Shown piece by piece: positions 11,374-57,538 of a stretch of DNA of 64,000 nt (positions are counted from its first letter, which is position 1; each line of letters opens with the position of its first letter). The position numbers and the translations under genes were made by a program. This stretch comes from Sphingomonas sp. HF-S4 (GTDB taxonomy: Bacteria; Pseudomonadota; Alphaproteobacteria; Sphingomonadales; Sphingomonadaceae): assembly GCF_032911445.1 (NCBI RefSeq), contig NZ_JAWJEJ010000002.1, positions 496,001 to 560,000 on the forward strand, written 5' to 3'. The notes beneath the pieces are model-generated. The model was not told where the DNA came from. It saw nothing but the letters and a program-made list of their open reading frames with translations, and did no database searches.

Positions 11374-13311
<1,938 letters not shown>

Positions 13312-13407
13312 TTGCAAGGTTGCAATTATTGCAACCGTCCGCCGGAAACATTGCATTTGCGGGAAATCCCACGGCGACCCAGATGCGTCCTATGCTGCAT
13401 TGCAGCA
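13312..13407 (+). promoter_or_regulatory. Cluster of TTGCAA-type palindromes, probable PhaR boxes
   Basis: Immediately after the acs stop are TTGCAA (13312-13317), TTGCAATTATTGCAA (13320-13334), CATTGCATTTGC (13349-13360) and the 15-bp palindrome TGCTGCATTGCAGCA (13393-13407). TGCA-rich dyads of this kind are the known DNA target of PhaR, the PHB-responsive repressor. The last palindrome, with two extra flanking bases (17 in all), is identical to the one ahead of the phasin gene at 19619-19635. Binding is inferred. Confidence 0.65.
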
Positions 13408-13430
13408 AGAACCTTCCAAAGGATTGCCCG

Positions 13431-13481
13431 ATGTTCTCGTTAATTGCGCTATTCGTGGCGCGGCGTCGCAACGTTGCCTGA
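13431..13481 (+). CDS. Candidate 16-residue micropeptide MFSLIALFVARRRNVA
   Basis: A tiny open frame begins at ATG 13431, with AAGGA seven bases upstream, and encodes a hydrophobic segment followed by three arginines (MFSLIALFVARRRNVA). It lies 23 bases after a palindrome that is identical to the one before the phasin gene, where the spacing to the start is 20 bases, and a strong terminator follows nine bases after its stop. The unit therefore looks like a complete small transcript controlled like the phasin. It could instead be a non-coding RNA in which the frame is accidental. I do not recognise the peptide. Confidence 0.45.
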   Translation: MFSLIALFVARRRNVA

Positions 13482-13489
13482 AGCAAAGA

Positions 13490-13515
13490 GGGGGAGCGGA
13501 AACGCTCCCCCTTTT
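13490..13515 (+). terminator. Rho-independent terminator of the small unit after acs
   Basis: A perfect 9-bp stem (GGGGGAGCG with CGCTCCCCC) closes a GAAA tetraloop and is followed by TTTT on the plus strand. It separates the small unit from the convergent peptide-transporter gene ending at 13529. Confidence 0.85.
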
Positions 13516-13528
13516 CGTATCCGGCGAC

Positions 13529-15322
13529 TTACTGGACGCCGTGCATCCACTTCTTGAGCGGCCAGCTGAGCAACAGCAGGAGCACGCCCAGGCCGATCGC
13601 CCAGTACGAGATCAGCGTGAAGACGTGGACATAGACGTCGAGGCTGACCTTCAGGTTGGTGACCTGGCCACCGACGGTCTCGACGCTGGCGACCTGCGCG
13701 ATCATCCCCGCGACATATTGCGCGACCGAGATCGACAAGAACCACACGCCCATCATCAGCCCGACGACACGCGCGATCGACAGCTTGGTGATCATGCTGA
13801 GACCGACCGGCGAGATGCAGAGCTCGGCGAAGCTATGGACGAAATAGAGCCCGGCGAGCCACCAGATGCCGACCTGGAACCCGGCATCAGCGAACTGCGC
13901 GCCCCAGACCAGCAGCAGGAAGCCGCCCGCGACGCCGATCAGCGCGATGCCGAACTTGACCGGGATCGACGGCTCGAGCCCGCGCTTGGCCAGCGACGTC
14001 CACAGGATCGACATGAACGGTGCGAGCAGCACGATGAAGGCGGCGTTGAAGAACTGGGTCTGCGGCGCGGTGATACTGAACAGCCCGAACACCGACAGGT
14101 CGGTATTGCGATCGGCGAACAGCGTCAGCGACGAGCCCGCCTGCTCGAACAGCGTCCAGAAGACGACGTTGAACACGATCAGCGTCATCGCCGCGAGCAT
14201 CATCTGGAATTCCTGGCGGCTGCCCGAGAGGAACGACCAGATCAGGATGCCGGGGACCGAGAGCGCGAAGGTGCCGAACAGGAACTTGCCCATGATCGGC
14301 AGCGACGCGATGTAGCCGAGGATCCCCGAGCCGGGCTCGGGCTCGACCGAGTTCATCAGGTTGACGTAGAGGAAATAGAAGACCGGGACGATCAGCAGCG
14401 CGCCGGCATAGATGAACCATTGCTGCCGCTCGACTTCGGGCCGTGCGGGCGGCTCGCCATAGCCGGCGAGCGTGTTGCCGTTGAACTGGATCAGCGACCA
14501 CGACACCATCATGCCGATCGCAGCGAGGCCGAAGCCCGCCCACCAGCCGAACAGCACCGCGAGCAGCGGGCATAGGATCTGCGAAAACAAGGATCCGATG
14601 TTGATGCCCATGTAGAAGATCGTGAAGCCGGCGTCGCGCCGGCGGTCGCCGACTTCGTAGAGCTCGCCGACCATCGTCGAGATGTTAGGCTTGAAGAAGC
14701 CGTTGCCGGTCGAGACCATCGACAGGCCGATCAGCATGATCATCACGTAGAGCGGGCTGCGATCGGCGTCGGATTCGAAGTTGCCCTTGGCGACTTTGCG
14801 CGCGAGCTGGCCGTTCTCGAGCAGGTCGACTGTGCCGTCCTCATTGCCCTTGATCTCGAGCTTCCGGGTACCGTCGACGACGTAGCGGACCTGCTTGTCG
14901 CCGGCCTGCTCGATCGAGACTTCGTAGCGCTGGCCATCGATCTTGGCGTGGGGCTGCGCGGTGGGGCCGCCGAAGCACAGGATGAGATAGCCGAGCGACA
15001 TCACGATAGCGCCGAACTTGACCGCGCGCTTCGAGCCGAGGAACTGGTCGGCCAGATAGCCGCCGACCAGCGGGGTGAGGTACACCAGCGCGGTGAACCC
15101 GCCATAGATGCCCGTCGCCTGGCGATCGCCGAACATGAAATGCTGGGTTAGGTAGAGCGTCAGCAGCGCCCGCATGCCGTAGAAGCCGAACCGCTCCCAC
15201 ATCTCGGTGGTGAACATCCGCGCGAGCTGGCGGGGATGACCGAACCAGGTCTTCTCCGCGGCCGGATTGACGCGGGTGATATCGGGTTCTGCCGGGCTGT
15301 CGGCGGTGGGGCTTTCTACCAT
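13529..15322 (-). CDS. Proton-dependent oligopeptide (POT/PTR2) transporter
   Basis: 597 residues. The N-terminus carries the POT signature ExxERFxYYG-like as TEMWERFGFYGMRALL, and the following GGFTALVYLTPLVGGYLAD(Q) matches the PTR2 signature. Fourteen or so membrane segments can be placed, interrupted by a hydrophilic insert of about 70 residues (about 125-190) that is typical of the longer bacterial POT forms. Imports di- and tripeptides with protons across the inner membrane. Read convergently with acs. The last residues (KKWMHGVQ) are cytoplasmic. Confidence 0.9.
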   Translation of the reverse strand: MVESPTADSPAEPDITRVNPAAEKTWFGHPRQLARMFTTEMWERFGFYGMRALLTLYLTQHFMFGDRQATGIYGGFTALVYLTPLVGGYLADQFLGSKRAVKFGAIVMSLGYLILCFGGPTAQPHAKIDGQRYEVSIEQAGDKQVRYVVDGTRKLEIKGNEDGTVDLLENGQLARKVAKGNFESDADRSPLYVMIMLIGLSMVSTGNGFFKPNISTMVGELYEVGDRRRDAGFTIFYMGINIGSLFSQILCPLLAVLFGWWAGFGLAAIGMMVSWSLIQFNGNTLAGYGEPPARPEVERQQWFIYAGALLIVPVFYFLYVNLMNSVEPEPGSGILGYIASLPIMGKFLFGTFALSVPGILIWSFLSGSRQEFQMMLAAMTLIVFNVVFWTLFEQAGSSLTLFADRNTDLSVFGLFSITAPQTQFFNAAFIVLLAPFMSILWTSLAKRGLEPSIPVKFGIALIGVAGGFLLLVWGAQFADAGFQVGIWWLAGLYFVHSFAELCISPVGLSMITKLSIARVVGLMMGVWFLSISVAQYVAGMIAQVASVETVGGQVTNLKVSLDVYVHVFTLISYWAIGLGVLLLLLSWPLKKWMHGVQ

Positions 15323-15462
15323 GCGTGAATTGCTTTCAAATGGGGTTCCGGGAGCGGGCCCGGCGCATGGGCGGCCAAACTAGACGGAATGAAGCCGCTG
15401 TAAAGGCGCGCGTATTTTTGTTGCGCCGCACGCATATTGGCGGGCGCGGCCGGCCACCCTAG

Positions 15463-16068
15463 ATGGCGGGGATGTTCAACGATCGCACTACGCCGCTAAG
15501 CCTTCTCCAGACTCGCCGATCGGGCAAGCCGCGCGACATGGTCGCGCCCGGGCCGAGCCCGGAGCAGCTGCACGAGATGGTCGCGATCGCGGCGCGGACG
15601 CCGGATCATGGCAAGCTCGCGCCGTGGCGGTTCGTGATCGTTCCCGACGACGCGCGGCCGGCGCTGGCGAAGAAGCTGGTCGAGATCCAGCGTGCCGAGA
15701 AGCCCGACTGTAGTGCGCGGGACGACGAGGCGGCGGCGCAGTTCGTCACGCAGGCGCCGGCCTTGGTGGTGGTGCTTTCGGCGCCGGTGATTCCGCATAA
15801 GATTCCCCTGTGGGAGCAGGAATTGTCGGCCGGGGCGGCGTGCATGAACCTGCTCCATGCCGCGCATGCGATGGGGTTCGTCGGCGGATGGCTGACCGGC
15901 TGGGCGGCTTATTCGAACGCAGTGCGCGACCTTTTTGGCGATGTTTCGCAGCGAATTGCCGGGTTTGTGTTCATCGGCACGCCCGGGCGCGAACTCGAGG
16001 AGCGGCCGCGCGGCGAACTGTCCGAAATCGTACATCAGTGGAATCCCGGGTATGGACCTGATCGCTAA
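15463..16068 (+). CDS. Nitroreductase family protein (YdjA-like)
   Basis: 201 residues from ATG at 15463, or 198 from ATG at 15472. The fold markers are the FMN-binding N-terminus LLQTRRSGKPRDMVAPGPS, ARTPDHGKLAPWRFV near 45-60 and the C-terminal GTPGRELEERPRGELSEIV. The short length and the TPDHG-x-L-x-PWRF segment match the compact YdjA branch of FMN-dependent NAD(P)H oxidoreductases. Substrate unknown. Three bases separate it from the longest form of the next, GntR-type gene. Confidence 0.85.
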   Translation: MAGMFNDRTTPLSLLQTRRSGKPRDMVAPGPSPEQLHEMVAIAARTPDHGKLAPWRFVIVPDDARPALAKKLVEIQRAEKPDCSARDDEAAAQFVTQAPALVVVLSAPVIPHKIPLWEQELSAGAACMNLLHAAHAMGFVGGWLTGWAAYSNAVRDLFGDVSQRIAGFVFIGTPGRELEERPRGELSEIVHQWNPGYGPDR

Positions 16069-19538: not shown

Positions 19539-19570
19539 CAAGCAACATTCCGTAACGTAAAAGACATCAT

Positions 19571-19635
19571 TGTGCAGTGCACAAAAATGCTATTGCAATG
19601 CATGCAACAGCTCCTTACATGCTGCATTGCAGCAA
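19571..19635 (+). promoter_or_regulatory. Three PhaR-type palindromes before the phasin gene
   Basis: TGTGCAGTGCACA (19571-19583), TTGCAATGCATGCAA (19593-19607) and ATGCTGCATTGCAGCAA (19619-19635) lie in series, ending 19 bases before the phasin ATG. TGCA-core dyads before phasin genes are the classic PhaR operators, where the repressor leaves when PHB granules form. The third palindrome matches 13392-13408 base for base over 17 positions. Confidence 0.75.
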
Positions 19636-19654: not shown

Positions 19655-20422
19655 ATGGCCACCAAGGGACCAAAAGCGCCGGCAAAGCCCGTCGCCGTAC
19701 CGCCCGCGGCGCGCGCCAAGAAGCCGGCCGCGCCCAAGACTGTGGCTGTTGCTCCCAAGGCTGAGAAGCCCGCGCCGACCGCAATCATCGAAGCAGCAGC
19801 TCCGGTGAACGAGGCCGGACCGGCCCCGGTCGTGGAAGCAGCGTCGCAGGAAGTAGTCGAAACCGTCGAAGCCGCGGCAGAGCAGGCACAAGCCGCCGTC
19901 GCGGAAACCGTCAACGAAGCCGAGGTCGCCGTCGCGGCGGTTTCGGAACCCATCGTCAAGGAAACCATCACCATGGCTACCAATTTCGAAAACACCGCCA
20001 CTGCCAACACCGCCAAGGCACAGGCCCTGTTCAGCGATTTCAACGATCGCACCAAGGCTGCCGTCGAGAAGTCGACCAAGCTGGTCGAAGAAGCCGGCGA
20101 GTTCGCCAAGGGCAACCTCGAGGCCGTCGTCGAGTCGGGCCGCATCGCTGCCAAGGGCTTCGAGAGCCTGGGCCAGGACGCTGCCGAATATGGCCGCAAG
20201 TCTTTCGAGAACGCCACCTCGGCGATGAAGACCCTCGCGACCGTCAAGTCGCCGACCGAGTTCTTCAAGCTGCAGAGCGACTTCGTTCGCGGCGCGTTCG
20301 ACGCCTATGTCGCCGAAGCATCGAAGAACACCGAAGCCGTGATCAAGCTCGCCGGCGACGCCGCGCAGCCGATCTCGAACCGCTTCGCGGTCGCCGTCGA
20401 AAAGGTGAAGACCGCCGCCTGA
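19655..20422 (+). CDS. phaP: Phasin family protein with long Ala/Pro/Lys-rich N-terminus
   Basis: 255 residues from ATG at 19655 with AGGGGA eight bases upstream; the open frame begins earlier, inside the operator region. Residues 1-105 are low-complexity Ala, Pro, Val, Lys and Glu. The phasin domain follows (about 115-250), an amphipathic helical coat with ALFSDFNDRTKAAVEKSTKLVEE and FFKLQSDFVRGAFDAYVAE-like patterns. Phasins cover PHB granules. The Lys/Ala/Pro part recalls PhaF-type DNA-binding extensions, here N- rather than C-terminal. An internal ATG at 19976 begins exactly at the domain boundary and could give a short form. Confidence 0.88.
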   Translation: MATKGPKAPAKPVAVPPAARAKKPAAPKTVAVAPKAEKPAPTAIIEAAAPVNEAGPAPVVEAASQEVVETVEAAAEQAQAAVAETVNEAEVAVAAVSEPIVKETITMATNFENTATANTAKAQALFSDFNDRTKAAVEKSTKLVEEAGEFAKGNLEAVVESGRIAAKGFESLGQDAAEYGRKSFENATSAMKTLATVKSPTEFFKLQSDFVRGAFDAYVAEASKNTEAVIKLAGDAAQPISNRFAVAVEKVKTAA

Positions 20423-57067: not shown

Positions 57068-57538
57068 ATGACGAAGCGTTGGTTAGGCCTGAATGCCTCC
57101 AAGGACTCGGTGAGCGTGGTCGATGCAGAAATACCTGACAAGGGCCCCGTTGTCATACTCTCAGACGATACTTGGAAAGTGCAGAAGGGAGACCGAGCTA
57201 CCGCGTATAGTTTCCTTCACCAGCAATGTGCGGACTACGTAAAAGAGAACGGAATTGACGCTGTTGTTGTTAAGGCGAGTGCCGTTACGGGTCAGGGATC
57301 GGCCAAACTCGGTCTTCTCACCAGCGCAGAGGTTCGCGGGGTCGTGATGGCCGCTGCCGGTTCGCATTGCAAAGTTAAAGCGCTCTCAAAGGCTGCGATT
57401 AGCAAAACTTATGGCGAGCGGAAGGTCGATGAGTACTGCGCGGACGATGCATTTTGGGCAGCGCAAACCAAGGGGCAACCTCTCCGGAAGATGAGCCGTG
57501 AAACCGCAATGCTCCTAATTGCCGCTAGGAACGCATAG
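57068..57538 (+). CDS. RNase H/RuvC-fold-like protein (DUF3010-like), partner of the kinase
   Basis: 156 residues from ATG at 57068, with GGAGAGG just upstream; an in-frame ATG at 57023 is possible. RWLGLNASKDSVSVVDAEI forms strands 1-2 of an RNase H-like fold, GIDAVVVKASAVTG strand 4, LTSAEVRGVV and the Lys/Asp/Trp-rich DEYCADDAFWAAQ the later helices. The first acidic catalytic position seems replaced by Asn (GLN), so nuclease activity is doubtful. A+T-richer than core genes. TAGTG overlap couples it to the kinase gene. The fold is a judgement from pattern. Confidence 0.6.
   Translation: MTKRWLGLNASKDSVSVVDAEIPDKGPVVILSDDTWKVQKGDRATAYSFLHQQCADYVKENGIDAVVVKASAVTGQGSAKLGLLTSAEVRGVVMAAAGSHCKVKALSKAAISKTYGERKVDEYCADDAFWAAQTKGQPLRKMSRETAMLLIAARNA

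Follow-up and report, generated by a model that had tools for sequence, protein, structure and literature searches.

A sphingomonad micropeptide family with a predicted PhaR-type PHB-storage switch

Comparison of the short unit that follows acs in Sphingomonas sp. HF-S4 with its relatives indicates that it is a member of a previously unstudied sphingomonad micropeptide family carrying a PHB-storage switch, and that cells probably make a helper peptide of 16-50 residues during PHB storage. No such micropeptide was found in the open-access literature that was searched.

Layout of the Unit

In the window, by which we mean the whole 64,000-nucleotide stretch of DNA that was analyzed, the micropeptide unit lies between acs and a convergent POT-type gene; the phasin gene and PhaC, both assigned by Pfam, lie about 6 kb beyond the unit. 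The features are:

11374..13311, plus strand: acs, upstream neighbor and bystander
13320..13334, unstranded: dyad TTGCAATTATTGCAA (TTGC-N7-GCAA), proposed activator site, centered near -65 if transcription starts at 13392
13357..13362, plus strand: proposed -35 element TTGCGG within TTGCATTTGC (13351-13360); GCANTTG hardly varies across 67 aligned modules
13380..13385, plus strand: proposed -10 element CAGATG, separated by 17 bp from the -35 hexamer, with CAnAT-type spacing in relatives
13392..13408, unstranded: 17-bp palindrome ATGCTGCATTGCAGCAA across the predicted start of transcription, proposed as PhaR operator
13418..13423, plus strand: ribosome-binding site AAAGGA, recognized by sequence and purine-rich at the same place in aligned relatives
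13431..13481, plus strand: micropeptide gene MFSLIALFVARRRNVA, 16 codons and TGA, with 82 homologous peptides and a clade pN/pS of 0.24
13489..13512, unstranded: terminator hairpin of 10 bp, then a plus-strand T tract, found by consensus scan, hairpin script and fold
13529..15322, minus strand: POT-type transporter gene, convergent neighbor and bystander, named from a reading of its sequence
19619..19635, unstranded: second, identical copy of the palindrome, ahead of the phasin gene (19655-20422, Phasin_2), found by sequence match and PhaR matrix

The original prediction of a 16-codon open reading frame (ORF) with a ribosome-binding site agrees with the ATG at 13431 and the plausible site at 13418-13423, and the 17-bp palindrome ATGCTGCATTGCAGCAA at 13392-13408 is, as was claimed, the same as the copy at 19619-19635, a match beyond chance. 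Between palindrome and ATG there are 22 bases in the micropeptide unit and 19 at the phasin gene (ATG 19655), the earlier values of 23 and 20 having been counted to the ATG itself. The strong terminator that had been described is present as a hairpin with a T tract but starts 7 bases past the stop codon, not nine; the consensus scan reported this hairpin solely for the minus strand, so termination of the convergent POT gene may be another of its roles. The statement that the unit holds no ORF of annotated size is true of the window's form but not of the family, as homologues of 44-45 aa appear in Sphingomonas records under the name "hypothetical protein". Among the 121 congeners searched, the closest acs is that of G125 (93%).

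The Palindrome as a Candidate PhaR Operator

The 15-bp core of the palindrome, TGCTGCANTGCAGCA, occurs three times in the 4.44-Mb genome and was found in 44 of the 121 genomes of the genus sample, compared with 0 of 121 for a reversed control pattern. Of eight genes behind such 15-mers in congeners that were run against Pfam, six were placed (a phasin, two PHB-esterases, a sugar transferase and two MFS transporters) and the other two matched no family. A symmetric PhaR matrix was built from 15 S. meliloti sites in fragments that the source tabulates as efficiently bound, with the exoH sites omitted; its best three sites in the 64-kb window were at 19567 (29.3) and 19617 (25.3), both in the phasin promoter, and at 13390 (24.8), in the micropeptide unit, the fourth scoring 14.3. 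The operator box is consistent with both published PhaR motifs, namely the R. sphaeroides site CTGCNNNGCAG, which is fitted by CTGCATTGCAG of the micropeptide operator, and the S. meliloti core YGCRNYGCR (PMC12542648); the same source describes the titration of PhaR away from phasin promoters by PHB in other species.

A PhaR gene is present in the genome (PF07879 match at G000:C2:874228, 110.5 bits against a cut-off of 25), and PhaR was detected in 291 of 295 congeners, the remaining four being at most 83% complete; G020 (79% complete) is the module-bearing genome in which none was detected. All six relatives that were found by the peptide pattern only, with the palindrome not used, carry the box. 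Three members (G017, G182 and G313) have a different dyad at the operator place and three more score just below 10 with the matrix, and the share of members left with a higher score, 76 of 82, is biased upward because the operator was part of the models that picked up most modules. The position of the operator over the predicted start is a repressor's place. Taken together, these observations suggest that the micropeptide gene is very probably under PhaR control.

Several other sites of this type were seen. The fourth matrix site, at 15416-15436, lies between the POT gene and a nitroreductase-like ORF (15463-16068, plus strand), so the POT gene may also be PhaR-controlled, and a fifth lies at 57451-57471 (12.1). 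The third genomic 15-mer (L044 1501-1515; G000:C1:386198) stands 77 bases before a Bac_transf sugar-transferase gene of exopolysaccharide type, a pairing that recurs in L075, L078, L088 and L090. In many congeners the palindrome is followed by a small ORF (some 97-122 aa) whose core resembles ATYNR...LAPH, for example at L050 1536-1886, which had no Pfam match; similar ORFs were found in L048, L057, L059, L062, L066, L072, L073, L079, L080 and L086. Additionally, a near-identical palindrome, CCGCTGCGCCGCAGCAAAG, overlaps a possible 15-codon ORF (MSYSAAPQQSLAARP) in five congeners (L283, L285, L286, L287 and L289).

Occurrence of the Family and Its Neighborhoods

Relatives were first detected by scanning 16 regions downstream of acs, fetched for synteny, with a peptide pattern, which placed the family in 7 of the 16 (six of them new), all seven with the box. 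Blastn with this region as query recovered from 61 genomes only itself and one 33-base match because the spacers diverge, and plasmid records held no match to the unit. At E<=1.6e-11, sequence models built from 11 and later from 67 modules matched 75 of 295 congeners, with a single copy in 74 of these 75 and two in G020 (76 matches in all). A family-level search of 397 genomes added two clear matches (G663 and G616) and two weaker ones that we read as family (G600 and G487); eight further family-level matches with E from 7e-5 to 7.4e-4 and some weak genus matches were left out of the counts. A DNA pattern run over 84,980 species genomes yielded 94 stretches, and among the 80 listed 73 belong to the family (Sphingomonas, Sphingobium, Novosphingobium and MAGs) and seven are chance matches that were excluded (L303, L307, L317, L324, L327, L335 and L356); because the pattern required the box and the L4-type and R12 codons, it informs on occurrence and not on those residues. 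Model matches L216, L218, L219, L220, L224 and L225 were excluded as non-family and L223 (G147) for its in-frame stop, and second matches in G317, G096, G066, G009, G250, G129 and G110 are different palindromes that lack the peptide. Of the resulting 82 peptides, 75 come from congeners and four from other genera, and three are weak congener matches. G020, the sole genome with two strong module matches (L204 and L217), is a 79% assembly in which mixing is possible.

The conservation in relatives that the original prediction proposed to examine was found, with ORF, operator and unit retained among related sphingomonads. A clear module is present in only 75 of 295 congeners although nearly all have PhaR; PHB storage can therefore do without it. 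A protein search returned 21 proteins, of which those with names are hypothetical; two long members were without a fitting NCBIfam family, and Pfam, for the 68 of 82 members long enough to be scanned, gave one chance match (WDCP, E 0.028) and no Phasin. The small arginine-rich DUF1127 proteins are a look-alike of the micropeptide, an identity that was dropped as no Pfam match to it appeared among the 68 scanned members.

As in the window, a POT gene is the downstream ORF in 30 of 75 modules, and the remaining modules occupy more than 12 other settings by automatic choice of flanking ORFs. The module stands directly after acs in only 2 of the 30 acs loci examined. At Sphingobium loci, genes identified by reading their sequence as dnaK, dnaJ, a permease and an acyl-CoA dehydrogenase are often present, and no PHB gene was recognized beside the Sphingobium or Novosphingobium modules. 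Because the unit is intact in unrelated neighborhoods, acs and the POT gene are bystanders, and the position after acs is incidental.

Peptide Sequence and Selection

The 82 peptides fall into 14 of 15-19 aa and 68 of 27-49 aa. M1 and R12 are present in all 82, L4 in 81 and F2 in 69; the earlier description "hydrophobic, then RRR" suits the window's peptide, whereas the family as a whole is characterized by some ten hydrophobic residues together with an invariant R12. For the 11 members computed, the mean hydrophobicity of residues 1-11 is 0.56-0.77 and the helical moment 0.03-0.26, so that the helix is not amphipathic and the peptide not phasin-like. An AlphaFold model of a 44-aa homologue, a single helix over residues 4-38 with a mean pLDDT of 69, was too weak for use.

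Within seven clades, which cover 57 of the 75 peptides then collected (the other 18 lying outside them), pN/pS over codons 2-13 ranged from 0.00 to 0.27, with 0.24 in the window's clade (7 genomes), compared with 0.53 across all 75. Third positions hold most variable columns in five clades (9 of 15 in the window's clade and 9 of 9 in clade A); given the kinship among pairs and genomes, these figures and the pN/pS values are effect sizes and not exact tests. The low values within clades argue that the peptide is made and that an RNA-only role is unlikely, and we regard translation of the 16-codon ORF as highly likely on this comparative evidence. The micropeptide reading of the original prediction is thus borne out by mainly synonymous changes within clades, a kept operator, a unit that is intact elsewhere and a wide occurrence. 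Two genomes depart from an open frame, G212 with ACG in place of the start ATG and G147 with its in-frame stop. In G017, G182 and G313 (L279, L282 and L291), short GTG-start peptides of MFSLIVQ type follow a kept -35 and -10 and a GCCGC..GCGGC-type dyad at the operator place, a possible repressor change.

The longer peptides share a distinctive end. AA is C-terminal in 66 of 68 of them compared with 13 among 312 other ORFs from the loci retrieved, [AV]N[DE] occurs in 45 of 68 versus 4 of 312, and the AA is often preceded by AAND or AANE; the window's peptide ends in NVA, without a degron-like tail. The tmRNA tag of the source genome is ANDNEALAIAA, and a published table of degrons lists AANDENYALAA as well as DPNEQVNAA of CtrA, the CtrA element being entered as N-terminal (PMC8138137). 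The likeness of the tail to ssrA-type tags is suggestive, and a role as a ClpXP degron is possible, although we consider it doubtful.

Promoter and Upstream Dyad

A consensus scan of the window found no sigma-70 consensus promoter, and the promoter proposed here rests on comparison with relatives. Of the 109 distinct modules, 108 could be anchored on the -35 element (G230 could not), and a CAnAT-type -10 was found in 96 of the 108, placed 20 nt after the TTG of the -35 in 94 of the 96. The TTGCAA dyad noticed upstream in the original prediction is present at 13320-13334 and conserved among related promoters; the full dyad and its fixed distance are new beyond that prediction. At this distance (two adjacent offsets), at least 7 of the 8 positions of TTGC-N7-GCAA match in 77 of 108 promoters versus 17 of 5000 background segments, with all 8 matching in 45 promoters, 7 in 32, 6 in 27 and 5 in 4, and the region lies outside both sequence models and the DNA pattern used to find modules. 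The dyad contains T-N11-A, centered near -65 counted from the predicted start, and LysR-type recognition sites are described as having a T-N11-A box, often near -65 (PMC8407307). An activator is likely to act through this dyad, and dimeric activators other than the LysR type are possible. TTGC-N7-GCAA also occurs in the phasin promoter (window 19593-19607), but at -35, and likewise in three of the seven congener phasin promoters matched by script.

Proposed Mechanism and Alternatives

We propose that in the absence of PHB, PhaR would occupy 13392-13408 over the predicted start and repress the micropeptide and phasin genes together, and that when PHB is formed PhaR would be drawn to the granules and the micropeptide gene transcribed, probably assisted by an activator bound at 13320-13334. 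A stretch of some ten hydrophobic residues before the invariant arginine is short for spanning a bilayer, so the peptide would most likely insert in a monolayer or single leaflet, that is, the PHB-granule surface or the inner membrane. The long forms may be short-lived through their ClpXP-degron-like tail, which the window's form does not have. Sequence evidence establishes the gene family, selection on its peptide, the match of the operator, the cohesion of the unit and the conserved dyad, and on it rest the predictions of PhaR binding, an activator, cellular location and turnover. Taken as a whole, this explanation of a PhaR-repressed hydrophobic micropeptide at the granule or membrane surface seems to us evenly balanced between right and wrong, and action at that surface, considered by itself, is a tentative assignment just short of even. 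An extended version, which we think improbable, is a self-limiting granule micropeptide in which relief from PhaR yields an MFSLIALY...R surface plug whose ssrA-like tail recruits ClpXP as a timed proteolytic signal; ClpXP would then be drawn to the peptide or the granule, and the short-form clade, which includes the window's form, would be uncoupled from turnover.

An alternative in which the gene and its PhaR control are the same but the peptide binds a protein partner (PhaR, PhaC, a phasin or a membrane enzyme) instead of a surface is unlikely, though the best placed of the alternatives to be taken seriously. Many known bacterial micropeptides bind one partner, and the near-constant R12 and L4 among variable adjacent positions fit a specific contact; no partner is indicated, however, as neighbors vary among clades. 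Recognition of the palindrome by another regulator with a similar preference is quite improbable: PhaR binding is predicted, three members have a different dyad at the operator place and the lowest-ranked matrix sites reveal a loose motif, but the box is common to phasin and PHB-esterase genes and fits both published PhaR motifs. A type-I-toxin-like peptide would also be small, hydrophobic and basic, yet the single copy in 74 of the 75 clearly matching congeners (G020 having two) and genomic places that are stable within clades leave this very unlikely.

The small-RNA reading of the original prediction was not supported, and we judge it highly unlikely that the unit is a PhaR-regulon RNA like MmgR of S. 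meliloti with an incidental ORF. PhaR represses mmgR, a 77-nt RNA (PMC12542648; PMC8401924), and the unit is likewise short, has a terminator and folds better than shuffles as a predicted transcript (z -3.46). That fold, however, amounts to the operator dyad and the terminator, and a consensus fold of 67 modules gave seven pairs, five in the operator dyad and otherwise a 2-bp helix; one pair is changed on both sides in five sequences, as a symmetric protein site would be. Rfam, searched over 12900-13800 with E up to 1, returned four matches, all below gathering score and none to MmgR/ar8, changes within clades fall mainly at synonymous third positions, and a strict script found terminators after only 19 of 82 ORFs, although most genomes of the window's clade have a clear one. 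The reading as a leader peptide or attenuator for the following gene, suggested by a short ORF with a ribosome-binding site and then a hairpin, was dropped for gene orientation and has a negligible probability: the next gene is convergent in the window and in the 30 of 75 POT-type loci, and downstream genes vary elsewhere.

A micropeptide that can be as short as 15-16 residues would be a new kind of product among PHB-switch genes, and a 16-codon gene below usual annotation limits was established here by comparison where plain blastn failed. The family alignment, the promoter anatomy, the invariant arginine and the occurrence of both long and short forms in nature provide material for testing, and if the degron reading is true, carbon storage would be linked to regulated proteolysis.

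Comparison with Known Systems

The S. meliloti PhaR (AniA) regulon includes phaP1, phaP2, phaZ and exo genes (PMC12542648), with which the unit shares a YGCRNYGCR or CTGCNNNGCAG-type operator at the promoter, common to the phasin gene; here the product is a micropeptide and the regulation is predicted. Like mmgR (alpha-r8), for which AniA/PhaR is the repressor and NtrC the activator (PMC8401924), the unit would be tiny and PhaR-repressed with an additional positive regulator, but it encodes a conserved peptide, has the TTGC-N7-GCAA dyad and gives no Rfam match above gathering score. The dyad resembles those of LysR-type promoters in its T-N11-A near -65 (PMC8407307), and differs in being known from sequence with a predicted start. 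Phasins (Phasin_2) have the same palindrome and likely the same timing, whereas the micropeptides are 15-49 aa long, have no Phasin match and form no amphipathic helix. Finally, the long forms recall the ssrA tag and other C-terminal ClpXP degrons in ending with AA, often after AAND or AANE, whereas their tail is gene-encoded, variable in spacing and absent from the window's form.
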